From Adineta ricciae (Eukaryota > Rotifera > Eurotatoria > Adinetida > Adinetidae), in assembly GCA_905250025.1 (NCBI GenBank), contig CAJNOJ010000080.1, positions 186,001 to 250,000 of the forward strand: a DNA stretch of 64,000 bases, written 5' to 3'. Shown one piece after another: positions 8,694 to 55,428 of this stretch. The position numbers were made by a program, and so were the translations under genes. Positions within the stretch are counted from its first letter, which is position 1. The number at the start of each line of letters is the position of its first letter. The notes beneath the pieces are model-generated. The model worked only from the letters and a program-made list of their open reading frames with translations, searched no databases and had not been told where the DNA came from.

Positions 8694-8749
8694 CTAGAAA
8701 GACGAAATCAAATAACGTTAGAACAACGAATCATCAACTGATGTCCTAC

Positions 8750-11263: not shown

Positions 11264-11299
11264 CTGCAAATAAAACATCGAGATTAAAAAAAAAGGAAA

Positions 11300-13118
11300 T
11301 TCGATACGAGCCGATTGATTTACTTTAACAAATGATGTTGGATGAAGTTTATTCTCTTCGGTTTCATTCATGAGAACACCTTCGCGTAAGTATTGCATAT
11401 GCACATTTGAACTAGCATCACCAAGCATGTCTACAGATGAAGAGAAAAAAAAAGAACGTCGGTTACAAAAGACGGTCTGCAATTGATATAGTGGATAATT
11501 AGCAGCATTCATGCGCGCGTATCTGCTGGGGATAGAGAAAAAAAAGGAAGCAGAGGATGTTCAGTTTTGATCATTCATTCGTTTGACAAGCAGAAACAAA
11601 AATGTTCAAACTGCAGACATACGACTACCTTGAGTCGTTTTTTGTTGAGACTTTAAATTGTTTATGGCTCTCGCCATATCAAAATATCCAAGTTCAGGAT
11701 AGACAATATCATCTTCATCTGTTTTTCTATCTTCTAGATAAGTAGATGATATGTAGACCATGTCGTTTTTCCTCGTTATTGGTTTGTCTCGAATCAAAGT
11801 GATATTTACCTGCTTCATCATCAGAATCTGTGACTGGATGTTCTTCATGAGAGACTTCCGGTGCTTGAATCTAAAATTCAGCACTCAGAAAATATCAAAA
11901 AGAAATGATCGATTAGTTACCTTATAACGCTCTTCGCTTGATGTTTCTTGTTTATTCACAAGTGTTGCTTCAGTAACACCTTTGAGTTCTTCGACAACGG
12001 ATATGTAACCAAGACGTTGTGCAATGGATAACGCAGTCATTCCATGCTAGAAAGATCGAGATGATGTAATCTAATCGGAAAGAAAACATGACATGGGATT
12101 ACTTTGTTTGTTTTATTTGGCGAAGCACCATGTTCAAGTAATAATTTAACAATCATAACATGTCCTTGTTGAGCAGCTGAATGAAGTGGTGTGAACATGA
12201 GCTGAAAGGAAAATAGTGATGATCATTTCGAAAAACTGCTTTTTTTCTGAATTATCCTACATTTGTTTCTGCATTAACGTTGGCACCGAGTTTAAGTAAA
12301 TACCGAACCATATTGATATGACCAAAATGACAAGCAACATGTAAACTTGTATAACCAGTCTAAAAATAATAAACATTTTCTTGTATCTGTTACAATGCTT
12401 TCTCAAATATCCTCGATAATCATGCTGACAAAAAACATATTGACCGCTCATATCCAGGGTCTACAGTTTGGTAATTGATTTCGATTATCCAAGGACTATC
12501 TGATGAGAGAATAGAATAGGATCTAATGAGAATTTAGTTCAAATGTAGACATTGTCATGGAATAGAGATGATTACTCTTTTGTCTTCTTCTGTTCGAAGT
12601 AGTCATATGATCAATTATTTGCTTACAACTGTTTGAGCATTAATATCTGCATTTTTACGGATTAATGCTTCGGCACATTGAACACGATCTTCTTGCGCAC
12701 ATAAGTGTAATGGTGTCAGTTGACTTTTCGATCCAGTGTTCGGATTTGCTTGGTTTTCCAGAAGAAGTGTTGTCACATTCAGGTGACCATCTTGACAACT
12801 CAAATGTAATGGTGTAAAACCACCTGTTGATTGAGCATTGGTATTCGCATTGTATTCTAGCAATGTTTCAGAAATAGCCTTCGCATTTTTCTTCGCTGCG
12901 ATATGTAATGGTGTGTAACCATTGCGCGCTGTTACATGTGGACTTGCAGCATGTTGCAATAAAAGTAGAGCTATATTTTCATGATTATAATGAACAGCAC
13001 AATGTAATGGTGTTAGATCATTCTAGAAAGAACGAGTTGAGAATGGGAGATATGTTGGATTTGTAAGGATTCATTCTTACTTTGCCTTGTATGTCTGCAG
13101 TTGCTCCTTTTTGGAGAA
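11300..13118 (-). CDS. Ankyrin last repeats and linker, 5'-truncated (left copy)
   Basis: Exons carry the last ankyrin repeats (12627-13022 with about four repeats, then single-repeat exons near 12260-12360, 12095-12200 and 11925-12050) and the acidic linker. The most 5' exon, 13081-13118, is cut by the N at 13119, so about 16 upstream repeats and the start are absent. The linker in this copy has changes such as DMARAI where the right copy reads DMPRAV. Confidence 0.78.
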
Positions 13119-13645: not shown

Positions 13646-16600
13646 TTAATGCTGTTGACTAGTTGATGGATCTGCACAATAGCAATCGTCGGAATGATGA
13701 GAAGAAGACGATGAATGCGAAGACATAGATGTGAGAGGCGAAGAAGTGACTCCTTCTTTAGGTAATGTTGATCGAGGAGATTGATGATGACCTCCTAACG
13801 AACCGGGATGCGAGTGAGTTTTTTTCTTCGGTTGGCTAGTCGACAATTCTGTTTGACTAACGGATGGAGACGATGAAACTGATGCGGAGGATTGATGTCG
13901 AGAACGAACCGGATTGGCATTGACAAACGGAGGTAGAAATGGTAAATCCGTTGCCGATTGCGTCTGCGGTTGTTGTCGAAAACTGGCGAGGTCAGTTTCA
14001 GCTTGTAAGATCCGCTGTTGAGGATAGGATGAAATTGAATGTTGTTGAGAATATATCACAGAACGAGACGTTGAAGAAAATGAGGAAGAAGAAGATGAAC
14101 TGGATGAAGGAGTTTTAATACGTCTTGTTGGTTGATCATGTGTAGGTGCGGATAAACGGCGTTTATCATGACTAGACGAGGCTGTTTGATGCTGACGAAT
14201 ATCTTCATCAGATGAAAATAGATTCTGTTCTTGGCTTTGTAGGTCTTCATGTGTGATTTCAACGAAGTCATCATCAATCGAATGACGTTGTGATTTTTCG
14301 ATAACAGTTGTTGCATCGGATTGCGACGAAATAGAATTAGTTAAATCACCTGCCATGTCGAGAATGTCATTGAGAACATTTTGTACATCGTTATCAACAG
14401 ATGAAAAATGCTTTTCGATAAACGATTCGACTTTGTTGTTGTTGTTCGTGTTTTCATTTGTTTCATGTTGTTGAATTAACAAATCAACTGACGAACGTAT
14501 TTCGCGTGCGGCATCGGTGACGTTTGTTGATGAAGGATTCTTTAACAATTCCATTTCAATACGTTCGAATTCCATTAATGAATCATCGGTGTTTGGTGTA
14601 TTTGACGAATTATGTTCAGTTGAATACGGACGAAGAATATCGCTTGTTGTTAAACTTAATGTACTAAGAGCAGGTTTGATCTCGTCTTGTCGTAGTTCAG
14701 GACTTTCATAAACAGTTTCCAGTGTTGTACCCGAGCGTAGATCGAACCCAGTATCAAGTGGGGGATATTCACATTGATGTTGAAGAATATCAATTAAGTC
14801 TGGACTTTCGTGTTTATCAGATGAACTTGATGAAGAATTGGATGGTGTATCGGTTTTAATTTCTTTCGGGTTTGTCGATGGTGAACTATTCTTTACTAAA
14901 ACGAACTCATCAGACACATCTCCGATGTCTCGTTCGCCGAAATCTAAAGCTGAATCGTCTAACGAACGTGGTGTGTAGCGATTTATCGGTGAGATATTTT
15001 CAATCAATTCTGTTTTAACTGTTAACATTTCAATTGGACTACTCGATGGCTGAGGTAGTTCTTGTTTTGTATAGAAGCTAAACGCTGACGTTGGCTTTTC
15101 GATAATCGTTGGTTTCTGTTCAAGTTGTTCAGCTTTCAATTGATCGAAAAATAACGTTGACGATGGTGTATATTGTTCAGGTACGCGAATAATGATACAA
15201 CTGTCCGAACTGAAACGTTGCAATGTACCATAGTCAAGTTCGTCCGGACAAGCTTGCAGCTGTTGTTCACTATGTGCGTGAATGAGATTTGTTGCTGTAG
15301 TGGTGGTTATTGCCGCTGCTGGTTCACTTGTTGGCAGTGATTGATTCAGACTTTGATCAGTGAATGGCGAGATGATGTCGGATTTATTGGTGTCATCGTC
15401 GCCAGCGAGAGTTTTTTCGATCAGACGATCTAATGAACGTTCGAATTTGAGCTTGATCTGGTCAATTAATGTTTCTTTTTCTTGATAAATATCATCTAAT
15501 TGTATATGAATAGTCGATTTAATGGAATCAAGTAACGAGGAATCGCGGTCGCTTTCACTGCCAGCATCATAATCCGAATGAGATACAGTTTTTGTTGTTG
15601 TTTGCATCTTTGGTGATTCTAGCGGTGGAGTTGATGCTAGTGGATAAGTTTGGCTTTCACCTAATTCTAAATCTGTTTTCAATGTTGCAAGATTAGTACG
15701 AAGAATTTCTTCTTGAATGCTTTTGATTAATTGTTTTTCATTGGAATCGCCATTCAGTGAATCTACACTTTCCTCTCGATGAAAGTTTCCGCTGGTAAAC
15801 CCACTGCTACCGGGTGGTAATCGTGGTGAACGCGGTGAAATATCATTGGTATCTAATTTGAATGAGACGCTTTTCGACGAAATGTTTTCGGAGAGATTTC
15901 CAGTTGCATCATTCAAAAGCGAGAATCGTTGTTCATTCGAACGTTTTCGTCGTTGTGTGGCTTCTTGATTTCCACCACTACTCTCTTCGCCCTCGCCCGA
16001 ATATTTCTCTTCTCGAAGTTTTTCATTGGTTGTCGTGCTCGAGAATAGTGATTGAGTTTCATTCGATTGTTTCTCATCGGAACTCGAATCATCATAACCA
16101 GGATTGATTGTTCCGCTTTCATCAGCATAATCATTATCATCAGATGTTAAGAAGTTTGGTGTTTCATCGTCGGCGGTTAAATACTGACTAGAATTCGATT
16201 GAGTCGGCGGTTGAAGACGTACTTTGTCATCATCAACAGTCGAATTGGTGCTGCGAACATCGACATATTCGCCACCGCTGGATGGTGATATTGCACTAAA
16301 GTATGTTCCCGTATCGGATTGAGAACCATGACGAACGATGACTGGTGGCGGTGGTAAGGGTGATAATGCTTTTGGAGATTGCTCTAGATTGAGAATTTCA
16401 GCATCTGTATATGAGTGACGGAGATTCTTTGTTGGCGTTGTTGTTGTCGATGATCGAGCTGAATGGTCTTCATCAGCAGATTGATCACGAGTATTCGACG
16501 ATTCATCAGCACTGTAGTGATCGTTGAAACCAAATGAACTTGTGTCGGTTGGTATTTGACTTTGTTTATGTTCGTCTTCACCCTCTTCACGAAGTTCGTC

Positions 16601-18577: not shown

Positions 18578-21500
18578 CTGAAGAGATCAATAGTGAAAAA
18601 TGAAACTTCTCTACTTCTTTGCTTTTTTACTTACCTCGCCTTGAACGTTCACTCGCGCCTGTTGGATAACGTCGATTATCATTTTTTGTAAACCTGGATG
18701 ATCGTCTTGTTCATGCTGTAGTTGTTTTTGCGCTTCGTCAACATCGCTCATTGACGAGCATGTGACGTGAACAAATTCGTTTTTCAATAATGGCGATCCC
18801 GGTGGACTCGAGGGACGACGTTCTGTTTGATGAGATTCACCTGATTGTGAATCGTGACGATATTGAAGAATATCACGTGACAATGAATCGACACTGGCTG
18901 ATTGCAAGGCCTTTTCGTCGTGTTGTTCAGGAGCGTCTGTCGCTTTATCAGGCTGATCGACAATTCTGGTCGTTGATTCAGGTAAGTGTAAATTGTCTTC
19001 GGTAGGTTGTAATTCGATTACGGGTGGGATAGTTACATCGTAATGACGAATTTCATCATTGTCGGACATTGATGATGATGCTGATGGTGACGACGAACGA
19101 ATAATATCAATATTGTCGTTGATTTCTTGCTCAAATTTATGTAACTCTTGCATAAGGTCAGCAAGTTCATGTGTTGATTTGGCAGTTGCTGCATCTGTTA
19201 TGGATAAATATGGTTCACCGGTGATATTTTCAATCGATTTGTCTTTTTCTTCGTCATCTGATGTTAAATGTTCTTCTTCTTTCTCGACGTCAACCCGATC
19301 ACTACCACTACTTGTCAGTTGAGTTGGCTTTTCTTCTGTGATAGCATCGGGTACGTTCTTAACCAAACTTGACCAATCAGTTAAGTCACTAATCGATACA
19401 TCAGCACTGGTTGTTTCATCACGTTGCGACGAAGGTATTTCATCATCATATTTTGTGTAGACATTATCGAGTACATCGTTAACAATGCCTGTTGCTGTTT
19501 GATAGAGAGAGTAGTTTCTGTCTTGTTCGACAGTTTCGTTAACAGCTTCATCGAGGATTCGACTGACGAATTTCTGTGATGTTTGTTCAAGAACTTTTTC
19601 ATATTGATCATCTCGGTCAGATTTGGAAAGAATATATTCTGTGTCAGGGGTAGATGTTTTGAACAGATTCTTATCTTGTTCGACAGGAAGTGAAATATCA
19701 AGGTGTGTCGGTCGAAAATCATCTTCGTCTTCGTGTTCCAACTCTTCGTCGCCTTGATAAGATGGAATTGTACGAGATATGATACTTGAATGTTGAACGT
19801 GGGAGATTAACGACGATTCAGGATTTTCAGCAACTGGTGAGTCAAGTGCATATTTCGCTGGTCGATATTTGTCACCATAGATTTCTTCACGTTGGAAAGC
19901 TGATTGCGTCCATGGCTCTGGTCGTTTCAGTTGTTCACTTTCGACTTCATCTTCATCCGAACGGACGGATGATTGCACGTTGGCAAAATTTTCATCGCTA
20001 ATTTCCCGTTCGAAACTCTTGGCCGACTCCATGTGGAAAGGTTCATCTTGACTTGGAAACGATTCATATGGATATTGTTGTTTTGGTGATGTTTCAGTGA
20101 TATGATGATCTTCTGGAGCGTGCTCGTCAGGAGATTCAATAGAGGATTTCTTTTCGACGCTCGGACTACGTTCGACTTGACCTTCATTAAGTATTTGTGG
20201 AAAGGAAAGAGCAACTTGTTCCGCACTTAACAATCTCGTGAAATCATTTGTTTCTTCTTGGTGAGTTTCCGTAATGCTGTGATCAAATGTCTTATGTTCT
20301 TCAAGTTCTTGAGAACTGGCGAGAATGTCTTGATCTGGTTGTGCTTTGCTTTCTTCATCACGACGCTCTTCCTCAGATTCACTATCTACGCGTGATTTAT
20401 TACTCACTTTGTCAACACTTAAGCGTCGTGCAAATTCTTGCTCGGTTGCTTCTTCCTCGGTCTTTGCACTCGATGTTTTTGATGATAACGCTGGCGTTGG
20501 TTCGGCACTGAGTTGATCAATTGAACTTCGTCTTTGTTCAGATGGAGAGGGAAGTTCTTCCTCATCTTGCGATGTAGATGGTGCAAAGTGTTTTGATTCA
20601 ATTATTGGAGATACTTCTTCAGCTACCAGATGGTCAGTGCTGTGTTCATGTTCGGACTGATACTGTTCTTCTTCTTCTGCATCCGAGATATGAGATGCAT
20701 GAATAACTTCTTTTGGAAGTTCGCCGTCATCTTCGTGTGATGATTGAGTGAAGGATTCATCTGGTGTTGGTTTTTCTTCCTCCAATTTGTGCATGTCTTC
20801 CGTTTCAGATTTGACTTCTTCAGTGATGAACTCATCTGGATATTGATCTTCGTCATGTTCAGTTGCTGGCGGAGATCGAGTGTCGATTCTTTCCGAACTT
20901 GGGTAGCTGACAGGTTTATAATCGTGTTCAATTCTAGTTTCATACTTTTCAGTTTCATCAGGAGAAGTAGCGAAAGTCTGTGGAATAGTTTCAATAGTTG
21001 GCGAAGATTTCGTGATGATTTCTTCGGTACTCTCTTCCCGTCCGAACGGATGCTGTTCAGCTTCATGAGATGATACAGCAACAGTGTCATGTACTGTCAC
21101 CTTTTGATCAGATTTATCTTGATCGTCATGTCTTTGTTCAAAAGCATCGGCGCGATCTTCGGCAGTTGTATGAGAAGGTTCGAGATTAAAGTCTTGTGAT
21201 TCTCGATCTTCTTCGAATGATGATGAAGGTGCAGATGCAACAATAAATTTCACATCGCTCATTTTGTCATCTTTGTGCTCAATTGTGCCAATAGCAGATT
21301 CATGTCCTTCAGCTGTTGGATGACTGTCAGCAGGCACTTGCTCAGCACTCGATTGCTTTTCGTATCGAGTTCGATCTTCTTTAGTTTCCATTTCAGTATC
21401 AGATGATGGTAATGATTCAGCGCTGGTACGATGTTCACTTAATCGTCGTTGTGTTTCGTGTTCCTCATCTTCTGTAGATTTGTGTGAATCTCTTTTGCTA

Positions 21501-24500
21501 GGCTGAACAGTGGAGGAAATCTCTTCTTTTTCGTCTTCATGAGATGTTTTCATGATAACGTCATTGTCGTCATCGTCGTCGTCATCGGCAACGAAATGTT
21601 CTTCTGCAATGTGTTGTGAACTTTGCAGTGATGATTGATCTGTGACTTCGGATTTTTCCTCTCCCGCACTTTGTGTGCTTGGGTAACGTTCATAGAAATC
21701 TTTGTGTTGTTCTACTTTTGGCGATGGTTCCATGTTAATTTGGTCTGAGCTGACTTTTCTTTCGGATTGATATTTTTCTTCTTCAGGTTCAACTGATTGA
21801 TGAGTATCAACAGCTATATGTTCTGGTTTCAAAACTTGAATGTCATGTTTATCTTCGGATGATGCTGGAGATTCAGCATGTGTTTGTTCAGTAATCGAAT
21901 GCTGTTGATATTCATATTGATGTCCATGGTCGTCTTCACTTGATCGACGTGATTCTCTGTGAACAGTTTCTAGACTTGTTGGTCGTTCTGATACATATTC
22001 TTCTTCAATAAGTGATTGTTTCGAACTGACTGATTTCTCGAATTGATCTTCTTCATCTTCATGCTCGCTGAACTGCGGAGATTTCATATCTGTTCTTGTT
22101 AGTGTTGCGCTTACTGGACTAATCGCAGTTTCTTTATCGATCGAGAATTGTTCATGTTGAAATTCTTTCTCTTCGATCATCGGAGAAGATTCAATGTTAA
22201 TTCTTTCTACAGGATGTTGTTGTTCTGTATGCAAGTCGACCACTTTTTCGACAATATCTTCTTCCGCTTCGGGTTCCTGTTGACTGAATTCAGATTTCCG
22301 TTCAGATTGGTGATCTTCTTCATATACAATACTTCTTTCCGATATGACTGGAGATTGTTCGAAAGCAGTTTCATGTTCTTGTTGGTGTTCCTTGCCAATT
22401 GTCGATTGAGACGGTTGAACAGAAGTTTTGTCGGTACTAGGTTCTCGTTTGAGATGAGGCTCTTCAATTTCTTCTTCGTGTTCACTGGATTGAAGAGATG
22501 CAGAGAGAACTTTTTCCACACTTGGTGTTCGTACTAACTGTTCTTGTTTCGTATGTTTGACGTCAAACATTGGTTGAACATGTGCTTCGTCAACGTATCT
22601 TTCTTGTTCGTCATGATTTTCTTCTTCTTCGTGTTCACTATATCGAGGAGATTTGGAGCGAGGTTCTTCAATGCTTGGCGTACGCAATAACTGCTCCTCT
22701 GTATGTTCATCTTCTGCATGAGTAACATGAGGTGGTTGTGTAGACACGATTCGATCCAAACTGCGTTGTCGTTCCAGACGGTTTTCTTCATCTTTGCCGT
22801 CTTCAGATTCGCTGTCGACACTGCGATGTTCTTCTTCATGTTCACTGAATTGAAGAGATGCAGAGAGAGATTTCTCATTAGTTGGTGATTGCGCTAATTG
22901 TTGTTTCTGTTCGTCTTCTACATGTATGGTATGAGGTGGTTGTTCAGTGGCGATGTCGTCGATGTTGGGTTGACGCTCATGCTGATGTTCTTCTTTTACT
23001 TGTTCTTCGTGTTCACTGGACTGGCGAGATGTAGAACGCAGTTCTTCAATGTTTGGTGTTCGTAGAAGTTCTTCTTTGTGTTTCTCGTCCACGTGTATGA
23101 AATCGGCTGATGATGGAATAACAGTTTTATCGATGCTAGATTGTCGTTCGAGACGATGTTCTTCTTTTTCATCATGTTCTTCATGTTCCTCGTCTTCGCC
23201 AAGTTCGAAAGATTGCGAGTGAGGTTGCTGTTCTACACTTGGTGTTCGTAGCAGTTCCTGTTTATATTCGTCTTCTACATGTGTGGTATGAGGTGGTTGT
23301 TCAGTGACGATGTCGTGGATGCTAGATTGACGCTCATGTTGGTGTTCTTCTTCTACTTGTTCTTCGTGTTCACTGGACTGGCGCGATGTAGAACGCGGTT
23401 CTTCAATGCTTGGTGTTCGTAGAAGTTCTTCTTTGTGTTTCTCGTCCACGTGTATAAAATCAGCTGATGATGGAATAACAGTTTTATCGATGCTAGATTG
23501 TCGTTCGAGGCGATGTTCTTCTACACTTGGTGTTCGTAGTAGTTCCTGTTTATATTCAGCTTCGACATGTCCGAAACCAGTTGCAAGAATTTTCTCGCCA
23601 CTAAGTTGTTGCTCAAAGTGGTGTTCTTCTTGATATTCTTCGTGTTCACTACATTGAGGAGATTCAGAACGATGTTGTTCTACGACTGATGTTTTTGATA
23701 GTTCTTCTTTGTGCTCATCTGCCACTTGGGCGAAATCAGCTGACGGAGGAATAACAGTTTTATCAATGCTGGCTTGTCGCTCAAGACGAGGCTCTTCGTC
23801 ATGTTCACTGGATTGAATAGATGCAGAACGCGGTTTTTCAATACTTGGTGTTTGCATTAGTTGTTGTTTCTGTTCATCTTCCACATGTATGATGTCAGAT
23901 GGTGCTTGCCGCTCGAGCTGATGTTCTACTTCTATCTCTTCATGTTCACTAGATTGACGAGATAAAGATTGCGGTTCTTCTACGCTTGGTGTCCATGGTA
24001 ATTCTTGTCTACGCTCCTTTTCTGTATGCGTAAATTCAGCTGATGGAGATAGAACAGCGTTATAGACGTTTGTTTGTCTTTCGAGATGATGTTCATTTTC
24101 GTGCTGCTCATATTCTTCATGTTCGCTAGAATGAATAGATGTAGAACGAGACTTGTCGATACTTGGTGTTCGTATTAATTGTTGTTCATGTGTCTCTTCT
24201 ATATGTTTGGCTTGGGATGATAGTTGGGTATTAGTTTCATCGGCAGCTTCTGGTTGTTCGAGGTAAGACTCTTTCTCGTGTTTACTGGATTGAGAGGATT
24301 CAGAACGAAGCTGTTCAACGCTTGGTGTTCGTACTAATTGCTGTTCATACGTCTCGTCTGTGTGTGTAACATGGGATACTGTTTCAGTAGCAGATTTCTC
24401 AATACTAGGTTGACGTTCAAAGCGATGTTGTTGTTGTTGTTCTTCTTCTTCTGGTTCTTCATGTTCACTTATGTGAGACGGTTGAGAGCGAATCTCCTCC

Positions 24501-27500
24501 GTACTTGGCGTAAGAACCAACTCCATTCCATGTTCATCTTGATGGTATGTAAATTCGGATGTTGGCTGGACAACCATTTCATCGACACTTGATTGTTGAT
24601 GGTCTTCTTCTTCATGTGGCAAATCTGATGACGGTGAAGCACGACTTTCATGGGCATTGCGCTGTTGTTGTTGTTCGAGATGATCTCCTTGCTCCCCATG
24701 CTCACTGATTTGCGGAGAGTGAGAACGAAGTTTCTCACTACTTGATGTTCTTGCTAGCTCATGCTCAAGTTCGATCTCTGTGTGTGGAAAGTTAGACACT
24801 GACGAAACAGAAGTTTGATGGATGTTAGATCGTTGTTCCAAATATTCTTTTTCTTCTTCTTCTGGTTCACTGATGTAAGGAGATTCTTGATGAAGTTTTT
24901 CGACACTTGGCGTTCGCGTCAATCGTTGTTCATGTTCATCTTGTCGATAGGTGAAGTCAGATGATGGATGAACAACTGTATGATCGATGTTAGATTGCTG
25001 TTCAAGCTGTTGTTCCTCTTGTTCTTCGTGTTCACTGAATCGGTGTGAGTTAGAGAGAGATTTTTCAGAGCTTGGTGTTCGTGCCAATTGTTGTTCGTAT
25101 GTCTCGTCTACATGGGTATCATGAGAGAGTGATTGAATCACATTTTCGTGTCGAAGTCTTTCTTGTTCGTAATGATGCTCTTCATGCTGATCTTCTTCTT
25201 GTAATTCTGTTTGCATAGTTGGCTGTTCGTGCTCACTGGGTCGCGGTGATTGAGAATGAGGTTCTTCAACACTTGGAGTTCGCACTAGTTCATGTTTATC
25301 TTCTTCATGTTCGACTACGTTCAAAGGCGTAACTGATATTTGTTCAATCCTTCGCTTTTCTTCTGGAAAATCTTGATCCGTTTGTTCGTCGTCATTGTGC
25401 TCACTTTCTCGTGAAGATTCAATAGTATGTTCGTTGAAGTGGAATGATTCACTTTCGTGTTGAGCTGCGACTGGACTTTCCTCAGCGCTAAGCCGTTTTT
25501 CTTTTTCATACATGTGACTTTGGATGTCTTGAGATGATTCAAGCACATCCTCTTCATGTTTGCTGGATCGTGATGATGTTGTACTAACTTTTCTCGAGAT
25601 TGATTTCTCATCAGTTTCAACGTTTTTGTCAACCGGAACTTCAAATTTCATTTTATCTTCAACTTGATGATCATCTTCTTCGTGTTCACTGGGTTGAGGA
25701 GATTCGGTGTGAGCTCTTTCAGAGCTTCGTCTTGGTTCAAGCTTATGATCATCTTCAATATCACGTCTTTCTTGTTCAAATGTTTCACCAGGTATAATCA
25801 CAGTTCCTTTATCACTGGAAAATTGATCATCTTGATGACCCTTGTCGTCAATTAATGAAGATCTTAGGAAAGCTTGGTCAACGCTAATATGTTGCTGTGA
25901 TGAATAATTTGGTTCTTCATGTTTCTCATCTTCATCTTCAATATGTTCAGTTGATCCAGTGATAATTTGTTGCACACTTGGCTTGCGCTCAAATCTCACT
26001 TCATCTATTGCGACCTTTTCAGAGCTTAGTTCTGACTGCAACTCGTGTCGATCTTGTACATCTGACTCCACTTCATGTTGATCAGCTGAAGTTTCTTCCT
26101 GCTTGATATCTTGTAATGTTCCAATATAAAATTTGCCTGATTGTTGATCTTGTTCTTGTTCGACAGTGGTGTCATCCGAAATTAACTTTTCGTGTGTTTG
26201 GTCGGGAGTACGAATCGATGATTCATGTTCAGTTTCCATTGTTGACGAAGGTTCGAAGATTTTATCTGTACTCCAAGTTCGTTCAATGTGCGATTGATCA
26301 TTTTCATCTCGGTGTTCGTAATCATGTGACACATCTTCTATAGTTTCATCTTCAATCTCTTCAGTCGGCTGTTTTAACTCCATCTCACTAGTAGTAGACT
26401 GTTGTTGAAGTGTTGTGATCGGTGGAAATTCTTCACTAAATCTTCGCTCGGGTCGATACTGTTCGCCATAGACTTCTTTTCTTTGGTTCGATGATTGTAT
26501 CCAATCTTGAGCGTGCGATCGAACTTCATGTGTAATTTTTTCTAATTCACCTGTAGTCTCTTCGATCATTTGTGATTCTTCTTGTGGCCAATTTTCTGTC
26601 TCTTGTCGAGTTAAGATTGTTCGATGTATAACAATAGGTATTTCGGCACTGAATGGCGAGATGGTATCGGGTTCTTCGATTTGAATGGCCGATGATGATA
26701 ATGGAAAATTTTCGATTTCGTGCACGATTTCATATGAAGTTGCAGGCGGATGACGTTGCTCAGTTGTAATAAATGATTCTGCTAAAATCTCTTCATCTTC
26801 TTTTCCCGATTGTTCTTCGATTTTCGTCGGTTTTTTTGTCCACGAAGCAGCAAGCATAAGATCACTCATAATTTCTCGAAGATTATCAATCGATGGTGGT
26901 GGTGATGGTGATCTTAATTGTCGTTCAGCATGTATCGATGGTGCGCGTTCGATAAATAGTGAACGGTGTGGGTCGCCTTCATAGAAAACATCACCCGATA
27001 CCAGCGGACTTTCCGGTATGAGCGGTTTTTCGTGTTCGCTCGTATCTTTGTCTTTGGTCTCCTTGTGATAGAACGAACGATGGATATCACCTTCGTAGAA
27101 GCTGTCTGCACTAATTCGCGCTTCTTCCGGTATGAGATGAGTGGTATGTGTTAATGAAGTTTTCTTTTCTCGAGGAGGTTTATCTCCTTCGAAAAAGACG
27201 TCGCGTGTGATGACAGGATCTTCAGGAATGAGATGAGACTGCGATTGCCGGGGTGACAATAGTCGACCATCGGGCCCACGATGGAAATATTCAGCCATTT
27301 GTTCAGGTGTCCAATCGTTTTCTGCTGATACTTTCGATTCCTGCTCAACAATATCGGTTCTAGTTGATTGCAAATCCTCGATTTTACTTGATTTGATATC
27401 ATTGATAATTCGACGTAACTCGTTGACATTTTGTTCGAATAATTCAATTAAACTATAATCTTCTTGATGAGCATTATTCTGTAAATTTTCGTTGATAGTT

Positions 27501-30500: not shown

Positions 30501-31445
30501 CAGATAGTAGTGAACGTGCGGGTGTTGCACTACCTGTATTCAACTGTTGCGCGATGGGTGTATCGAACGGACTAATGTCATTTGAGTCAACGCTACTCTC
30601 CTTACTACTGGTCAGTAAAGTTTTTGAACGATCGGACGTTACACTGTTAGGCATTAGCGTTGAAGTACTTGTGGAAAGTTCTTCTTCGTCCGATTGCAGA
30701 TTTGTTGTCGATGATGTTAGTTCAGGCTGTGGTGGACTGATAACAGTCACAGAGGTTGTTATTTTTGGAGTTGATTTCGTTGTCACAATATCGAGTAAGG
30801 GTGAAGCGGTTTTCGTGGTATTCGAACCTGAGTCAACTGAAACGAGTGTTAGCGGACGTGTTATCGGTGAAGCAGAGGACTCATCCGATGCCGACGTAGT
30901 CTCAGGTAATGTCGGTGGATCGTCACGCGGTAGTTTACTTGTTGAGGATGTTTGTACTGAAACTTTTATTGGTAATGCTTGTTGTTTGTTATTTGCACTT
31001 GAATTGAGATTATTTGTAGTTTGATCATGTTTTTCAAATGCTTTTTCGGCTTGCTGCAAAATATTCTCAGTCATGTGTTTTGCAAATTCTGTAATTTCGT
31101 TTGGTGCTGAAGGTAGTTCAGATGACTGTTCGGTTACATCATTTGATGTCGTAGATGTGATACTCAATGGTTCACTGATCGATTTTGTTATCACTGGTGA
31201 ATCCGTGATTAGAGTGACTCTTGCTGGATCAACAGTGAATGGTTCTACAGTTTCGTTAAGAACGAGTTTTTCATCGTTCAGTTCGTTACTGTTTGACGGC
31301 TGTTGAATGTAAATCGGCGGAGCAGATGCTTGTCGAAGAATATTCATGTCCGTGTCATTTTCAGATATAATACCAAATGTATCGACAAGATTTAGAACTT
31401 TCTTTACGACATTATCAGTTTGTTGAATGAGTGTAGGATCGGTAC

Positions 31446-31481
<36 letters not shown>

Positions 31482-34400
31482 TACTACTAGCACCATACAA
31501 AGAGAAATGTCTTGGCGGTTTTGCAGGTGGTGAACTAATCTCAGTAGATGAGGATGAACCTGATTCATCGCCATGGCGAGGTGGTTTAGCTGGCGGTGGT
31601 GTTAATGGAAGAGAAGTAGTTGATTCAGTTGAATCAACAGGGGCTTCGGCTAGTAATGGTTCGGAAGTCTCATTTACATTCGCTGATCGAATCGATATTG
31701 CCTGTGCTGCTTGTAGTTCGTTGTTACTTATATCAACGGATTTCTTTTTTGTCATCATCGACTTTTTCAATGGTTTCACAACAGCATGTTTCAATGCATG
31801 TGCTAATGCACGTGCTTGATCGGGTATTATTTTCGATTTTATCAAGCGTTCACCCACGGCAGGTGCTGCTTGAGCGGACACAGCACGTGTAGGTGCTGGA
31901 AAGAAATTAGCAGTTAGGAAAAACAAGTTCGACAAGAAGAAGAAAAAACTTGGGATGAAACTTACGAATATCATCAAGTAATTGAGCTGTTTGTTCAGCT
32001 AACTGCTCGGTTGCTGTTACTGTCGTTTGTGCTTGTAACACATCTTCATCTAATTTGTTGAGATCCAATTTAGCTGGAGAAACATAAGTTTGTTGAACGA
32101 TAGTATCCATAACAGGCGGAACAGGTTTTGATAATGGTTCATTTTCTGTTAAGATTGGCGTTGGTTCCTTAGCTATATGAACGACACTAATGTCATCGTG
32201 TCGTTGAACTGGTGGTCTGGCCTTTGCGTAAGCTTGAATGGAAAAAAGTGAGTAGTTAGAAATGCTTACTAAGAATGCTTCGAGGAAGAGGGAGAAAATG
32301 TTGGTTGCTAGCTCTCGATAGATTCAATAGATTTGTTCAACCAAAAGAATCAGAAGTTTTCTTGCTTTGCCTGGCAAACGTCTTTTATTTTTCTGTTTAA
32401 TACTACACAGGATATGTGGAGTTTTCTCATCTTGAAAAGAAAATTCGCAAATCATCTAGCAGCAGTCAGCTTATCAACGAATTATTACGTCAATTATGAT
32501 CACTAATCGAAAAACATCCCTTTAATTACAAAAATATAACATTGATGTCGTTGTGCATTATTTTGATTCGATGTGGAATATTCATTAAGTCGAACAACGC
32601 TATGCTCATTCTTGTTCTCTTTATTCCTATAATTGGATGTTTAGAAATGAAAAGAAAACTTCTTCTTCTTCTTCTTTTCTTTCTCCTGAGACAAACTCTT
32701 AGTAGATGATTCTAACAAGCTCATGAATAGAACGAAGAAACTAATCATACGTGGTGATAATGGTGTGATGCGTCCTTCGCCAATATCTGCGCTTCGTCGT
32801 TTTCCTGTCGAATCATCATGATCAGCTGAAAATAGAAATGCAATTATGAGACATGAGTTATGTGGAGATCAAAACAACAAATATAAAAAGAAAAATCAGA
32901 GCAAACTCGATCAAGGCTGCATGCAAAATAGAGAACACATCAAGCTGAAAAGAACCTTTATCACGTGTCAGACGATTCAATTTGTCTCTGAGACTTTCAA
33001 GATGTGTCAGTTCGAACGGATGAGCGTAACAACTCAATGGTGTCATCGATCCTGATTTGCTAAATGGTTGATAGATGGAATAATAGCCACCATAACGTGA
33101 TGCTGGTGTTGGTGCTTTACTTGAATCAACAAAATGTAAGGGAGCATCACGTTCACCTGGGAAAATACATAGAAACAACATTGACGACAGTAACAACAAC
33201 GACAACAACAAAAGCTAAAGATGCGCCTGTCTATTTTCATCAATCTACGAGACAACATTTAGACAATATTTATCGGTATGAACCTAATTTTCTATCGGAA
33301 ATCTTTGCATTTATAATCGTATCTGCACTTGATGTTGATGATGATGAAGGAATATGTTCTCTCGATATATCTCTTTTAACCATCTTAAGTGGTTCTAATT
33401 GTTTAAATTGTAAAGTTGGATTCTGTTGAGAAGAGAGTTTCTCAGTTGTTTGTTCTCCTACATCTTCTTCAGTCGATTCTTCGTATGTGATCGTTTTTAT
33501 TATTGTCCGTGAACGATTTCCATGATCAATGGTAACATCTTGAGAGTTTTCGAAAGAAAACACACATTTATCGAAATATTCTCATGAAAACAAAAATTTT
33601 TCTATTCTCATTCTGTTCTATTTTCGTTAACTTACTAGATCTTCCATAACGACGGCGTTCATATTCTTCATCACTTTCAAAGCCTTCATCAAACTAAATA
33701 AAGAAAAAGAACACAACGATTATATGCAAGTTGAGCATAGAAAAAAACATACGCGACGTCCACCATATCCTGATCCTTCAATACTGCCACCGCGACTTGT
33801 TAAACGAGCTTTAGCAACTTCTTTCTCGGCGGCATCAGTTACCCATTCGATGTTAAAGACACAATTGTGCACAATATTTTCTTTACCAATTTTACGTAAA
33901 GCTTGTTGAAGGCAGTTACCTAACGAAAGATACTGAATGAGACAGACTTTCAGCCAGAGATTTTCGTACCTGTTGCATCAGTGCCGCGTGATTTAAGCCA
34001 GTAACGTAACATATGCAAAGCAGCATTTTGTCCATATTCATCCATCAATTTTGTCACTTCTTCTTCAGTAAGTTCGAGTTCAGCAGCAAGTGTTGGCCAT
34101 TCTGAGCCAAGTGATTTCGCGATGTCAGTTAGACGAATTTCACCTTTTCGATACATGTCATCAGATCGCCAACCTACACAAAATCTTTCGTAGATCCATT
34201 CACGTACTTCAATTCCGAGCACTCACTTTCTGAACGTGGTTCACGATCAACAGAATGAAGATTTCGAAGGCGTTCCTCGTGCTAAATCAAACTCCAATCA
34301 AATCAAAGCAACTTACTACGACAACTAAACTTACTCCAAGTGCATCCTAGAAAAACGAAATAAAAATAATGTTAGAACAACGAATCATCAACTGATGTCA

Positions 34401-37400
34401 TACCTTATCATAAGATGGTAGGATGATATTCAAATTGCAGATCGGTTGTAGTGTTTGTGGATCAACAGCAGTGTTCGATGGTGCATGACCATTTGTCATT
34501 GTGACTGATGATGTTCTTGGGATAGGTGTTAACTTTCCATTATCTTTAGAGAAAACAACACGTCCCGATGGTTCTTGTTGCTGATCACGTATTCGAATAA
34601 CACACGGCAAACGATTTTCTCGAAATGCTCGAAATGTAAATGTTAATTGTTCATTCGTTTTTGTAATTGTTTGTAAATTAGTCGATTGCAAATCCAAATA
34701 GATCGTATTTCCGTTAACAACTTCCACTTCCCTGGATTTGGCGATTTCAATGAAATGTTCTTGCATTTCTAATGTTTTGTTTTCTTTATCGTCGGTGATA
34801 CAGAAAAGACGTGCTAATGCTTCATTGGGATCATTTCGTTTTGCAAAAACAACAAAACGAGACATATACGGGACGGCAGACGCTTCGCGATAGATTTCAT
34901 GAGCTAGTTTTAGAACGTCAGGTACACCTTGCGCATCGATTAGCCAAAATCTATTAACGAAAGAACTTGATGTGAGTCAATGCTGATAAAAATATAACTG
35001 TAGTACTCTGGTAGGAATCTCAACAAGCTTTTATGTCCTATATTCAGAAAATATTATTCACGCCTACACGCATTTCAATGCTCACAATCGGAAATGATTC
35101 GTCGGAAGGACACCAAAGTAGTAAAAATAGATTTCTACTAAAAGAATGCTCTATCGATTGATGCGCTCATTGTATTCTTCTCGGGCAATTCAATCAACAG
35201 TAAAGCGCCATCGAAAGATCCTCATATTCTTCATTAATAATCTATATGGTAACTAGACATGCTCATATTTTCTTCGAACGTCGTTACCTGGCTGAAACTG
35301 TTGTTGTAAACGTCGCACAGTCGTTGGAGAATGTCAATGGGGTGTGTCCTGTGATATCGTCGAACTGTGCGGCATGTGTACCACCCGTAATGCTGCATAA
35401 TAATCGTAATGTTTGAGAATCACTGGTGTATGCATTGCCATGCTGTGCATCTTTCGAAGTACCTTGCTTGTTTGCTTTCGTTGGCAATGGAATTGTTACG
35501 GTAATTGGTTTGTGAAATTTTCTTCGACGTGGCTCGACTGTGACGACAGGGCTAACGTTGACACGTGATCCGTAGACATGTTGAATCGTTTGCGAGGAAA
35601 TCGGTAAAACGTGAAGTGAGACACGAATGCGTTTTTGTAAAGCTTTTTCAGGTACATGAGCTTGACATGATGGAATTATTGTTGATGTTAAGAGACCACC
35701 ACGCTCATCGACAAAATGCGATTCCTGATGTAGTCGTGATATCAATGCAAAATAACGCGGAAAATCGTTAGTGATAATACGAGTTATTCGACGTGAATTG
35801 AGTTGCTCAGTAGATTCGAGTCCTGACATGAAGAGAGGAAATGTAGACAAGAAATATCAGATAAGGATGCTCACCTTCGGATTCGAAAGCATCACCAAGT
35901 GTTTCACGCACAGCTTCATCTGTGATTGGACCCGTATGTTCTGTCCATTTTTCACCGTTATCACTTCGTAGGACGATAATTTCGCGTTCATGATTTCGTA
36001 ATGAAGCAAAGTGAGGAATTTCAAGAATGACAGGCCTAGGAAAGCAAAGGCAAAAATCATCATTATCATCATCGTCATTAGTTTAAAATATTCTCTGAAG
36101 TCTTCAATGGATTTCATCAAATGGTGACATTGAAAACAAAAGCTAATATCCCAGATGACACTTGCATATGACAACTATCATGAGAATATACCTCGAACAA
36201 AATATTTTTCTTATTACTGGATAAAACTGAATAATTCTTGGAGATTTGATTTCATTAAGCTAGACTTACCCAAGAAATTTGCAATTCACAGGTCCAACTT
36301 CCAAAACTCTTGCTGCTAATGCTTCCCCTTCGTTAATCGGTGGAGGTACGACTAGTTTATCACGTTTGACGAATCGACATGTAATTCTTGTCGGCATACT
36401 GGCACGTTTGGGTGGAATAATAACCCGTACACCCGAATGTCGACATCCACGCATAGCACCACCACGAGCATCGACCAAAAAGCTCACCAAAAATCTACAT
36501 AGACATCAACCAGTCTATAAACTATATCATTAGCATAGGCCGCACAAGAAAAAAACAGAGGCAAATAGCTGTCAATGAGTTTAAGGAGATTAGTAGTTTA
36601 GTTTGAAAAAAAAACAAACTAAGCATGTGTGAGAACTTACGATCGATAATAAAAACGATCCCTAGAAAGACATAACAGATACACATCACACTCATGCTGA
36701 TCGATAGGTTTCGTGCGAGGCGCATTGAATCGAAGATGAAGGCGAGAAGTTGGAAAAAGTTTACTCACCCTCCATGTCGTGGTCGACTAATCATCTCATT
36801 ATCGGCAGGCATTGTTTGAGAAACTTTTATTGGCGTTTGTGAATGATCGAGAAGATTATCTCGACTTTCATTCCAATTATCTTTTGTTGCTAATGCTGGA
36901 TATTCGGAATCTTCCTGCAAATAAAACATCGAGATTAAAAAAGGAAATTCGATACGAGTCGATTGATTTACTTTAACAAATGATGTTGGATGAAGTTTAT
37001 TCTCTTCGGTTTCATTCATGAGAACACCTTCGCGTAAGTATTGCATATGCACATTTGAACTAGCATCACCAAGCATGTCTACAGATGAAGAGAAAAAAAA
37101 GAACGTCGGTTACAAAAGACGGTCTGCAATTGATATAGTGGATAATTAGCAGCATTCATGCGCGCGTATCTGCTGGGGATAGAGGAGAAAAAAGGAAGCA
37201 GAGGATGTTCATTTCTGATCATTCATTCGTTTGACAAGCAGAAACAAAAATGTTCAAACTGCAGACATACGACTACCTTGAGTCGTTTTTTGTTGAGACT
37301 TTAAATTGTTTACGGCTCTCGGCATATCAAAATATCCGAGTTCAGGATAGACAATATCATCTTCATCTGTTTTCCTATCTTCTAGACAAGTAGATGATAT

Positions 37401-40400: not shown

Positions 40401-43218
40401 CAGATCCAATCATATCGAAATCGTTCGCTTTTTTTTTGTATGAACATGCTACCCTAATCTACACTGATATGTTAACCGATAACATGTTATCGATTTGTCT
40501 ATATATGTAGTCGAGAAATTAGTCGAAAAATTAGTCTAGATCAAAACTCTAGTGCTTACTCTTCCCAGCTAAAACAAAAAAGAAAAAATACACATGATAA
40601 ATCATAGATAGACAACATGGAAACATGAAACAAGAATTCTTCCACCACCGGATAGACAATAAAGTATACAGACATTCATCTAGACATTAAGAAAACAAAC
40701 CTTTGTTGTACAATTAACAAAGCCTCCTCCCTATTGATTATGAAGTGTTTATATGAAAATAATCTTCATGTTTTTGCAAGTACAAACCTTATAATTAAGA
40801 TCGGGTTGATTATCGCCTTGTAATAATAAAGCGGCAGCTTTTGTATCATTCTTCTTCGCTGCAATATGCAATGCTGGTAGACGAACTTTCGAACCTTTCG
40901 AGTCATTTTCCAGAAGTATAGCAACCACTTTATCATGTCCTTGCTGAAGACTAACAGCTAAGGGCGTAAATCCATCCTAAACGAAATCAACGCCAACATT
41001 TCCAATCAGTAAATCTTCCGGGAAGATAAATTACCTCAGTTGCTAGACTTTGATTAGCGCCATTAGCGAGCAGAAATTTAACTACTTCAATATGATTCTC
41101 TTCTATAAATAACCGAATGAAAATATTATTGTAAGCCGACCAATTCGTTTTCGTTTGTTTCACTTACGTGCAGCCATGTACAAAGGAGAGAATCCATTTT
41201 GTGATTGACAATTGATATTCGCATTGTGTTTAATTAAAGTTTTAACAACTTCTTCTTGGCCCGCCAATGATGCAATATGAAGAGCTGTGTTTCCTTTCTA
41301 AAACGCACGCGAGAGAGAGAAAAAAAACATGATTAATGATTAAGCCTTGTCAGAAAGACATCTTCGAGACCTTCGTTGCTGCATTAACATTGGCACCACG
41401 TGAAAGAAGCTCCTGGACAATATTTACATGACCCTCCCTAAATACAAATATCATTTAATCATTAANTTAAGCTTGAATAATAGAATTAGAAGAAAAAAAA
41501 AATCAAAATTCAATGAGAAATGCGCTCCGTTCGAAAAGAAAAACGAGCTCTCTTCTCGCTTGTAATTTAGATATTCAAAGATACATTACATATGATTTGA
41601 CAATTGTCAATATGTGGACAGAGAAACTGAATTGTTTCGAATCGCATTTGAATTCATAGACATATCTCTATTTTCAAGTACCATTGAAAATCTCAACCAA
41701 CTGGTCGTTCTCCTCGGTCGTACAAATATTGGAAATGTAAGAGACTAAATGCAAATACAATGCGTGCGCTTACATCGCCGTACGAACACTGTCATGGGAA
41801 ATATCTTTCGAAGTCGTATGCCAATAGAAAACAAATGATAGTGATGAGATGACTGGCGCATTCTTCTCTTCCTTTGTCTTCTTATCATGTCACCCTTAGA
41901 AAATAGAATTAATGAAAATAAGAATAATGAACAAAACAAGCAACGAATTCGAAAGTTGAACGACAGTATTGTCTTTTCGCACAAGTCAACGCGAAGAAAT
42001 CTAAGGTTTCGGCCTCTCGCCGACTTATTTTTATATTTCATAAGTGAACAATAGTTGAACAAGAAAGAAGTCATCGAAATGTGTTATTGTATGTACGAGT
42101 ATACTCAAATGTATTACATAACCTAAATGAAAACTATTCCTCGTAAAGTGTTACTGATACATGTGTATGTAGATGTCATAATTGTCCAAGATTACGATGA
42201 GTTCAAACTATGTGTACGGATGAAATGTACATATTTATGTTCGCTTTCTCACTTGTGGTTGATGACGATGATGGAAATCGATGGTTGGAGGCAATGAAGA
42301 TAGGTTGATAGACGTTGGACGAGGTCTGGATGCTTGAATATTGTCTGATGCTGTCTGATCGGACATCATTGCTGATCAAAAGATCTTTATTGATAGGGAA
42401 TACGCATAGGAAACAATAGGCTTTGTATTATCGTTCGGATAGTATCAAGAGAGACGATCTACTATCGAAAACTACTTGATGAAAAACAAGTATTTCTTCT
42501 CTATCATTCCAGTCTTATAGGCATTGACTAGAAAGCTGCTTAGCGTCAAAAGAAATATTGTTAATAATCAGCCGTCATCATCTGTTGGTAAAAGATGCGT
42601 AGAGGCTAGTCGGAAAGACCGATTCTTCGTCGTCGTCGTCTTCTTTTTCCCCTCCACTTTCTCTCTCTTTTTTTCTTCTATTTCTTATGACTTCGAATTT
42701 CCTTTTCGGATTACCGAATTGTTCATTCCTAACTGAACGAACTCTGTTCCGGCGACAACGAACAGAATCTTGGTACGAGTAAAGAAGAAAAAGCAACAAC
42801 AGCGTAGACAGAATTGTGTCACTATATTGTATGATGATGCGGAGAGAAAGAATTTGCTCTAACAAGCAATAACCCAGATAATTTTATTAAAACTTCTCTT
42901 TTTCTTTTTCCTTCCATTTCATTAGTCAGGGAAAGCTCGTCTATTGATCGAACGATCATTACTTCTCTCGTAAATCAGACCAAACAACAAGTAAAACAAG
43001 AATATTCTCTTGTCGTCCTCAAGACAGGATCAATTACAGTCCTAATACGTTTTTAAATAATACACAAAAAAAAAGGAATCGAGGAATAAATACAAAATCA
43101 GAAGCGAAAAACACACATACTTTCAGAAACATCTGTGCATGGATGTAAATGCATCTCTGCGTGTATTAAATTAGCTCTTATTACTTACTGTTGATGAGTT
43201 TGGTGTTGAATGGGTCAT
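13646..43218 (-). CDS. Giant ankyrin gene, main copy
   Basis: Ankyrins tether membrane proteins to the spectrin cytoskeleton. Coding order on the minus strand: ankyrin repeats (41437 to 37569), acidic linker, ZU5-ZU5-UPA (36494 to 34404), death domain (34173 to 33753), then alternative tails. I followed GT-AG introns across about 35 exons; the reading frame is kept at every junction. The longest path ends through the 60-nt exon 29638-29697, giant exon 18635-28866 and terminal exon 13646-18577, giving about 6,800 residues plus the missing N-terminus. Vertebrate giant exons sit between UPA and the death domain; here they follow the death domain, as in Drosophila Ank2 and C. elegans unc-44. Repeat 1 and the start of repeat 2 are missing at the N at 41466. 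Introns longer than 300 nt (28867-29637, 29698-30090, 32233-32750, 34951-35287) hold no other recognised gene. Confidence 0.9.
18635..28866 (-). CDS. Giant ankyrin exon (10.2 kb)
   Basis: A single open frame of 10,232 nt (about 3,411 residues), acceptor TTTACAG at 28867, donor GTAAGT at 18634, phase 1 in and phase 0 out. The protein is very acidic (Glu/Asp/His/Ser-rich) and probably extended. Visible parts, 5' to 3': a Ser/Pro start; short coiled-coil-like stretches (26-28 kb); three copies of LIPE...F/YYEGD; a [18 protein letters not shown] motif; the 17-fold acidic repeat array at about 22470-25290; then a second [18 protein letters not shown] motif near 19850-19915. Similar giant ankyrin exons act in axonal microtubule organisation in flies and worms; that role is by analogy only. 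Confidence 0.9.
22470..25290 (-). repeat. Tandem imperfect acidic repeats in the giant exon
   Basis: At least 17 units, each about 45-75 residues. Core: L-x-RTPS-x-E(E/K)-x-x-S-x-S-x-x-SSEHEE, then an acidic run, (L/H)ERQ-x-SIDK, and a T/A-H-x-EDE-x-x-Q stretch. Many units are degenerate (EPEE, KHEK, EDEE for EHEE). A longer unit of 119 residues (357 nt) is present twice, starting at 23512 and 23155, with almost identical first halves, which points to recent internal duplication. Confidence 0.85.
29638..29697 (-). CDS. 60-nt linking exon to the giant exon
   Basis: Phase 1 in and out, Ser/Thr-rich ([18 protein letters not shown]). Left counterpart 3993-4052. It joins exon 31966-32232 to giant exon 18635-28866. 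Confidence 0.65.
30091..31895 (-). CDS. Alternative terminal exon T2 (about 600 residues)
   Basis: Acceptor TTTCCAG at 31896, phase 1, stop at 30091. Begins [17 protein letters not shown], then a Lys-rich amphipathic segment, and is otherwise Ser/Thr/Pro-rich and likely disordered. Two PPAKPPRH motifs look like SH3 ligands. An Asn run is encoded by the microsatellite at 31448-31486. Near the end, [14 protein letters not shown] precedes a short terminal helix-like segment [16 protein letters not shown]. The left copy has an intact equivalent. Confidence 0.75.
31448..31486. repeat. AAT/AGT trinucleotide microsatellite in T2 (main copy)
   Basis: Encodes three Ser then eleven Asn on the minus strand; longer than the left counterpart at 5808-5842. 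Confidence 0.9.
31966..33693 (-). CDS. Post-death-domain shared tail exons
   Basis: Exons 33636-33693 ([18 protein letters not shown]), 32956-33156, 32751-32825, 31966-32232. All junctions are phase 1. The region is hydrophilic with a Tyr-rich [15 protein letters not shown] patch. It leads either to terminal exon T2 or, via the 60-nt exon, to the giant exon. Confidence 0.72.
33270..33538 (-). CDS. Alternative short terminal exon T1
   Basis: Entered in phase 1 from exon 33636-33693 through acceptor CTCTCAAG, ending at a stop at 33270, 88 residues. Contains [22 protein letters not shown] and a Ser-rich end. The left copy has the same exon at 7619-7887 with equal length. Skipping it leads in the same phase to exon 32956-33156. 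It gives a compact ankyrin without long tails. Confidence 0.6.
33753..34281 (-). CDS. Death-domain exons of ankyrin (main copy)
   Basis: Exons 34227-34281, 33970-34173, 33753-33919. The fold signature runs [18 protein letters not shown], then [11 protein letters not shown] and ALHMLRYWL, and finishes with LQQALRKIG. The domain is six-helix type as in other ankyrins. After it come a basic RLTSRGG stretch and a Gly-rich [14 protein letters not shown] end. Confidence 0.88.
34335..34346 (-). CDS. 12-nt microexon between UPA and death domain
   Basis: GATGCACTTGGA (DALG) with acceptor TTTCTAG and donor GTAAGTTT, phase 0 on both sides. The left copy keeps it at 8682-8693 (one synonymous change). 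It is followed by exon 34227-34281. Constitutive or optional use cannot be told from sequence. Confidence 0.6.
34404..36494 (-). CDS. ZU5-ZU5-UPA exons (main copy)
   Basis: Exons 36270-36494, 35875-36035, 35288-35822, 34404-34950. The first ZU5 begins with [17 protein letters not shown] followed by IIPP, nearly invariant in ankyrins, and has the [14 protein letters not shown] segment. The second ZU5 and UPA follow, ending near [10 protein letters not shown]. In known ankyrins the first ZU5 binds beta-spectrin and the three domains pack as a ZU5-ZU5-UPA supramodule. Confidence 0.92.
36641..36661 (-). CDS. 21-nt microexon before the first ZU5 domain
   Basis: Acceptor TTTCTAG and donor GTAAGTT flank 21 nt on the minus strand. 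In phase 2 it inserts GDRFYYR-like residues just upstream of the [12 protein letters not shown] start of ZU5. The left copy preserves it at 10990-11010 with both splice sites and the same length, despite substitutions. Inclusion is probably alternative, since skipping also keeps the frame and gives the family-typical join. Confidence 0.6.
36769..37518 (-). CDS. Acidic linker exons between repeats and ZU5 (main copy)
   Basis: Exons 37458-37518, 37277-37381, 36972-37078 and 36769-36914, phases consistent. The product is acidic and Ser/Asn-rich with no globular signature, apart from a [10 protein letters not shown] segment. In other ankyrins this linker binds partners and controls autoinhibition. 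That role is not visible in the sequence here. Confidence 0.75.
37569..41437 (-). CDS. Ankyrin repeat array exons (main copy)
   Basis: Exons, 5' to 3': 41371-41437, 41168-41297, 41035-41102, 40788-40976, 40264-40362, 39831-39939, 39661-39774, 39524-39600, 38883-39476, 38729-38827, 38275-38670, 37912-38010, 37751-37849, 37569-37694. Many are 99 nt, one 33-residue repeat each. Consensus G-x-TPLHIAA-x-x-GH and LL-x-x-GA-x-x-N motifs are plain throughout. Aligned from memory to human ankyrins, which have 24 repeats, this covers the middle of repeat 2 to repeat 24. The array includes the diverged [11 protein letters not shown] repeat where the usual TPLH is replaced. It ends with [14 protein letters not shown], typical of the last ankyrin repeat. 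Confidence 0.92.
40560..40568 (-). CDS. Candidate 9-nt microexon in the repeat array
   Basis: CTGGGAAGA (LGR) between a good acceptor (GTTTTAG) and donor (GTAAGC) in the same phase-0 intron as the 30-nt candidate. So short a match to splice consensus can arise by chance, so it is weaker. Confidence 0.3.
40701..40730 (-). CDS. Candidate 30-nt in-frame microexon in the repeat array
   Basis: On the minus strand it is bounded by an acceptor (ATCAATAG) and a donor (GTTTGT) and encodes [10 protein letters not shown]. It lies in the intron between exons 40788-40976 and 40264-40362, both phase 0, so inclusion keeps the frame and inserts ten residues between two repeats. No left-copy counterpart exists in the window for comparison. 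Confidence 0.5.
41466..41466. other. Second single-N junction, inside ankyrin
   Basis: Lies in the intron upstream of the first visible repeat exon. The exon for repeat 1 and early repeat 2 is not found on either side, and the base sits at the end of an inverted repeat. A mis-join or collapsed gap is likely. Confidence 0.75.
41467..41669. repeat. Left arm of a perfect inverted repeat
   Basis: Reverse complement of 43890-44092, identical over 203 bases including a 10-base homopolymer. The match extends 5 bases past the N. It carries no gene. Confidence 0.9.
42253..42369 (-). CDS. Candidate alternative first coding exon A of ankyrin
   Basis: 117 nt from two successive ATGs to a donor GTGAGA, phase 0. 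It encodes [10 protein letters not shown]... followed by a Pro/His-rich stretch. Located upstream of the repeats in the same orientation, but separated from them by the N at 41466, where the next exon should lie. The donor and the open frame are the evidence; no homology is recognised. Confidence 0.4.
43189..43218 (-). CDS. Candidate alternative first coding exon B of ankyrin
   Basis: ATG, then [10 protein letters not shown], then a strong donor GTAAGTAA in phase 0. It cannot be spliced in frame through exon A (a stop would follow), so the two would be alternatives. Confidence 0.35.

Positions 43219-52334: not shown

Positions 52335-55428
<3,094 letters not shown>

Follow-up and report, generated by a model that had tools for sequence, protein, structure and literature searches.

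A probable giant ankyrin gene of the rotifer Adineta ricciae with two giant exons 3' of the death domain

A 64,000-nt stretch of Adineta ricciae contig C80 (positions 186001-250000, hereafter the window) very probably carries, as a single gene, a giant ankyrin of the neuronal type. The gene, here copy B, runs on the minus strand from 41437 to 13646 in 35 exons and encodes 7,440 residues with its 5' end missing (837 kDa and pI 4.76 from the 35-exon model). Its identity as a giant ankyrin, proposed in an earlier sequence-only reading, is borne out by an ANK-ZU5-UPA-Death core, by an in-frame chain of that length and by the dN/dS of the tail. That reading put the protein at about 6,800 residues or more without the N-terminus, which was correct in making it very large and slightly low as a figure; its coordinates for a tail of 5,050 residues were right, and the tail measures 5,053 in the model. 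The genome (130.46 Mb in 1,033 contigs) holds at least four ankyrin copies, two on C80 (copies A and B) and one each on C84 and C110, a lower bound from a ZU5-UPA protein search.

Copy B consists, in order, of ankyrin repeats, ZU5, UPA, a death domain, 926 further residues and two giant exons. Its features in window coordinates are as follows.

41371..41437, minus strand: first recognisable coding exon, holding the rest of ankyrin repeat 1 (22 residues); same frame in C110
37569..41437, minus strand: ankyrin-repeat exons, 1-14 of the model (gene model and Pfam)
34404..36398, minus strand: ZU5-ZU5-UPA exons (UPA_2 at 34539-34874, best ZU5 stretch at 35960-36397)
33753..34173, minus strand: death-domain exons (domain at 33864-34135)
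31966..33693, minus strand: five exons following the death domain; a similar series occurs in copy A, C110 and C84, with some lengths differing
30153..31895, minus strand: 581-codon exon following the death domain (gene model)
29638..29697, minus strand: 60-nt exon, a multiple of 3 that could be skipped in frame (gene model)
29253..29282, minus strand: further 30-nt exon, uncertain and outside the final model
28867..28891, minus strand: acceptor tract preceding giant exon 1, the same in all four copies
18635..28866, minus strand: giant exon 1, 10,232 nt and 3,410 residues (open frame, gene model and dN/dS)
28376..28621, minus strand: best-conserved island within giant exon 1 (80% identity with the diverged duplicate)
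22349..25279, minus strand: imperfect repeat array rich in S, E, H and Q, with 16 units, most of them about 53 residues long and ranging from 39 to 126 (unit split; one counted unit is of double length)
19604..26701, minus strand: block of giant exon 1 almost wholly missing from C110, residues 722-3087, ~2,370 residues (alignment)
13646..18577, minus strand: giant exon 2 including the stop codon, 4,932 nt and 1,643 residues (open frame, gene model and dN/dS)

A codon-scoring gene finder was applied to each of the four copies. The copy B model was then corrected by hand using open frames and the models of the other copies, which themselves were left uncorrected. The first automatic model of copy B had missed or shortened several ankyrin exons, continued through a short stretch near 36915-36971 and differed at 31966-32232; the exons it proposed upstream of 41437 were discarded as noise. 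Two choices in the final model are uncertain, namely the exclusion of the 30-nt exon and the retention of a 12-nt exon (34335-34346). Every internal exon border carries AG/GT and no internal stop occurs, while the continuity of the frame is partly by construction, as the gene finder demands it at each junction.

Ankyrin repeats hold membrane proteins, and the ZU5-UPA unit binds beta-spectrin. Both are recognisable in the copy B protein, in which Pfam finds ANK, ZU5, UPA and Death in canonical order. Canonical ankyrins begin with an array of 24 repeats; in copy B the Ank family is matched by 19 stretches and Ank_2 by 13, repeat 1 being cut by the assembly break. The ZU5-ZU5-UPA cassette is present, with ZU5 in two stretches and the best UPA_2 stretch at residues 1198-1309 (protein match E = 2.9e-38), as is the death domain (E = 2.6e-10). 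The best solved relative is Ankyrin-2 (4d8o, E = 6.8e-152), along which the ZU5-UPA-death segment aligns. This core has a dN/dS of 0.041 between copies A and B and is more constrained than the giant exons. A genome search with ZU5 gave five further matches (C109:279864, C66:118557, C179:216323, C74:113674 and C56:368213), which were not counted as ankyrins because they are absent from the ZU5-UPA protein search.

The giant exons occupy minus-strand open stretches of 3,432 codons (18611-28909) and 1,646 codons (13646-18586). About 207 stops would be expected in the 3,410 codons of giant exon 1, and none of 200 shuffles of this exon gave an open run of more than 211 codons. The comparison of copies A and B yields a dN/dS of 0.288 for giant exon 1 and 0.131 for giant exon 2. 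The corresponding values against C110 are 0.209 and 0.222, computed over 924 and 819 aligned residues, some of them scattered in the block missing from C110, and at a dS near saturation (1.9-2.4). Changes fall most often in third codon positions (183/173/356 by position in giant exon 1 and 37/31/170 in giant exon 2). These patterns indicate that the giant exons evolve as protein, under selection.

The tail they encode is acidic (pI 4.58) and biased in composition. Serine and glutamate make up 29.1% of giant exon 1 and 24.2% of giant exon 2 versus 13.0% of the core, and S, E, T, D, K and P together reach 53.5% and 52.3%, versus 36.1% in the core. The sequence-only reading had recognised no domain here. 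This holds for Pfam, which gives no family for any of the three tail ORFs, and for a Protein Data Bank search with both giant exons, which returned no match, but the tail does contain strongly conserved islands. Over residues 82-163 of giant exon 1, identity with the diverged duplicate is 80%, versus 80.9% for the ZU5-UPA-DD core, and all six genome matches to the conserved tail start at E <= 0.01 fall in the ankyrin loci. Giant exon 1 varies in length, with 3,317 residues in copy A versus 3,410 in copy B and one 96-residue gap in A. It also contains a 284-nt internal repeat pair (22882-23165 and 23239-23522, 91% identical).

The EB-binding SxIP motif occurs 4 times in copy B (shuffle mean 3.3), once in A (2.9), twice in C110 (1.3) and 3 times in C84 (1.3), which is not above shuffles, and neither are the LC8 (TQT), NPF and PxxPxR motifs in the ankyrin copies. 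A loose LIR-like pattern, with overlapping matches counted, is found 37 times in copy B (shuffle mean 23, maximum 38 of 200 shuffles) and 35 times in copy A (mean 23, maximum 37). Short glutamine runs exceed shuffles in both copies. One strongly basic 40-residue stretch was found in the region following the death domain; it lies within the 581-codon exon (31741-31860) and is alike in C110.

The copies on C110 and C84 are colinear, 94.5-95.5% identical and diverged from those on C80. Each was modelled alone, and each has the part order of the C80 copies, with giant exons after the death domain. They share the tail islands with copy B, but their giant exons are far shorter, with 1,011 and 826 residues on C110 and 1,008 and 888 on C84, the last value being unreliable as it is read across an 86-N gap. 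The tail thus amounts to 1,837 residues on C110, in a protein of about 3,960 residues (uncorrected model). The block missing from giant exon 1 of C110 carries the repeat array, and residues 1087-1415 of giant exon 2 are almost wholly missing as well. Synonymous divergence is near 0.14 within the pairs (A/B and C84/C110) and 1.16-2.36 between them, and the GC content of the C80 stretch is 0.37. These figures resemble the GC of 35.6% and the pair values of 0.14 and 1.27 given for Adineta ricciae in the available text of PMC5916493, which concerns another assembly of 174.5 Mb.

On the minus strand the death domain ends at 33864 and giant exon 1 starts at 28866. Model and domain coordinates therefore confirm that the giant exons lie 3' of the death domain, as first read, and not between UPA and the death domain. 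The layout is common to all four copies, which shows that it predates the divergence between the C80 and C110/C84 duplicates, although this cannot separate a common origin from an older independent gain. The sequence-only reading had offered an old protostome arrangement or an independent gain. That choice is not new, since the arrangement has already been argued to be old, and the rotifer gene agrees with the older origin. In the available text of PMC5135030 (Jegla 2016), long exons are present in 23 of 36 bilaterian ankyrins, eight of the 23 having two. Those after the death domain occur across protostomes and in echinoderms, are called ancestral, and are argued to have a single bilaterian origin. 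The same text describes a Ser/Glu bias that is common, not defining, with S+E at about 25% and S+E+T+D+K+P above 55%; copy B fits the former and, at 52-54%, falls just under the latter.

An independent gain of the giant exons in the rotifer lineage would be compatible with a tail for which neither Pfam nor the PDB yields a homologue, and PMC5135030 likewise reports, in its available text, no sequence homology among the long exons of different phyla. Loss of homology is, however, expected at the evolutionary rate of the tail. The shared position in other protostomes and echinoderms (PMC5135030, available text), the similar composition bias and a tail predating the split of the duplicates also speak against such a gain, which we regard as unlikely. 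The word rotifer does not occur in the main text of PMC5135030, tables aside, and among the papers searched none combines "giant ankyrin" and "rotifer". The gene extends the pattern of giant ankyrins with long exons after the death domain to what would be a new phylum, and is a good further example of a known layout, not a surprise.

The window contains a second, 5'-truncated copy of the gene to the left of copy B.

1..13118, minus strand: copy A of the ankyrin gene, 5' truncated, extending past the left end of the window and interpreted as the other allele
13119, no strand: single N at the exact border of copies A and B, a probable contig misjoin (alignment of the copies)

The two copies align in three pieces (94.4, 86.9 and 93.9% identity) over about 25 kb, and the sequence before the N ends inside the repeat just as the sequence after it begins inside the repeat. 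Copy A is most likely the other allele of the same locus, the two alleles having been laid end to end. A real, recent tandem duplication of the giant ankyrin is what the contig presents at face value, with copies head to tail and 87-94% identical. The left side gives the allelic reading no support, as a genome search for an allele of the left flank returned C80 itself and weak C84 and C110 matches only. We nevertheless reject a tandem duplication as very improbable. The border of the repeat coincides exactly with the single N, and dS between A and B in five segments (0.177, 0.163, 0.134, 0.145 and 0.061) resembles that of the C84/C110 pair (0.148, 0.135, 0.120, 0.121 and 0.000). The searches gave two plus two copies (lower bounds), and the right flank of the C80 locus is matched separately by a stretch of C163 that is 95% identical and ends at the equivalent of window position 42471. 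Moreover, the duplicate locus is single, with the left flank matching C84, the right flank C110, and these two contigs colinear. Copy A, read as an allele, cautions that a gene duplication can be mimicked when the contigs of two alleles are joined end to end.

The N-terminus of copy B is absent because a single N (41466) interrupts the assembly there. Motif searching of 41437-45300 did not reveal the exon in which ankyrin repeat 1 begins, part of which is present in C110 (NGLNALHLASK). A short minus-strand frame at 44907-45092 (GMVMNIEQQATTAPTTTTNN...) has a counterpart in C110 and may be the true first ankyrin coding exon. In every copy of the locus the assembly is interrupted within or close to the 5' part of the gene, either at a single N or where a contig ends (window 13119 and 41466, C110:206840, and the ends of C84 at 385156 and C163 at 242050), and something near this part of the gene resists assembly. 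A 208-nt inverted repeat, 99.5% identical between its arms (41467-41674 and 43885-44092), adjoins the N at 41466 and is possibly a hairpin artefact of assembly; C163 stops short of the position of the first arm. Further to the right, six ORFs at 49643-63541 were scanned against Pfam. Four match neuroendocrine 7B2 (50129-50734, plus strand), BCAS3 WD40 (54318-55208, minus strand), an MFS transporter (60846-62342, plus strand) and the C-terminal part of DNA polymerase delta (62486-63541, minus strand), and the other two are without a match.

Whether the giant exons belong to the ankyrin is best judged at the acceptor of giant exon 1. In copy B this exon opens at a consensus acceptor, not at an ATG, and the acceptor tract is identical to that of C110 at 25 of 25 nt. 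It is the most conserved of the 24 compared, which are those of the 35 model acceptors that have a plain partner in C110. Without gaps, 22 of the other 23 share 8-15 of 25 nt and one shares 21. The latter is a second well conserved tract (36399-36423, minus strand), located before ZU5 and bordering the exon that ends at 36398. When 60 nt are compared with gaps, the number of identities is 48 for giant exon 1, 49 for the acceptor at 36398 and 35-44 for the other 22. A frozen acceptor in a comparison in which synonymous sites are near saturation points to selection on the splice site of giant exon 1. Such selection would be best explained if the exon is spliced to the upstream ankyrin exons, perhaps in a regulated manner. 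The in-frame joining of the giant exons to the ankyrin, claimed at the outset, is thus supported by the 35-exon chain and the acceptor; in all four models giant exon 1 is in phase with the exon upstream of it, a fit that the method imposes.

Alternatively, the ankyrin could be shorter and the giant exons could make up an independent gene on its 3' side. A promoter for such a gene would have room in the 1.3 kb between the 581-codon exon and giant exon 1, and a read-through of the 581-codon exon, which would stop at 30091, gives a possible short form. An exon start at an acceptor in fitting phase, the conservation of that acceptor above all others in the ungapped comparison and the same part order published for many bilaterians (PMC5135030, available text) make this reading hardly credible. 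For the giant exon of mammalian Ank3, PMC12713133 describes neuron-specific inclusion in its available text. The papers that we found offered, in their available text, nothing usable that links a conserved acceptor to ELAV-type factors.

Read as one gene, copy B would work much as its family does. Its ankyrin repeats would bind membrane proteins and its ZU5-UPA unit spectrin, and the long acidic tail would extend from the spectrin-actin cortex in the direction of axonal microtubules, fixing the spacing and providing docking sites. The docking sites are probably the conserved islands with which giant exon 1 begins, and the spacer is probably the repeat array. Whether giant exon 1 is included is probably decided by regulated splicing at the conserved acceptor, which would yield short and giant forms. 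According to the available text of PMC7159925, giant ankyrins link the cortex to microtubules directly in Drosophila and via EB proteins in mammals, and UNC-44 of C. elegans anchors UNC-33/UNC-119 as a route to microtubules. Microtubule binding by the rotifer tail has no direct sequence support, given its acidity and a SxIP content that is not enriched.

We tentatively suggest, while leaning somewhat against it, that the diverged copies of the only ankyrin gene found may have split the giant-ankyrin job by length after a genome duplication of the bdelloid type. One allele pair, its two members unequal in length, would encode a protein of ~840 kDa whose repeat array sets its reach, the other a protein of ~4,000 residues, both with the same frozen acceptor. 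If true, this would parallel the several giant and short ankyrins of vertebrates, achieved by genome duplication and not by alternative exons. Duplicates with tails of 5,053 versus 1,837 residues offer a natural test of the effect of tail length, and the frozen acceptor marks a spot where splicing of the giant form could be probed.

Among known giant ankyrins, Drosophila Ank2 (L and XL) is alike in having two long exons after the death domain, a repeat array in one of them and a Ser/Glu bias. The available text of PMC5135030 gives 93 repeats of 76 residues for the XL form, whereas the rotifer array is imperfect, with 16 counted units of mostly about 53 residues. The giant isoform of C. elegans UNC-44 likewise has its long exon after the death domain (PMC5135030, available text), but one such exon where the rotifer gene has two. 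The vertebrate ankyrin-G (480 kDa) and ankyrin-B (440 kDa) share the core domains and a giant exon with the rotifer protein; in these the long exon precedes the death domain (PMC5135030, available text), whereas in the rotifer it follows.
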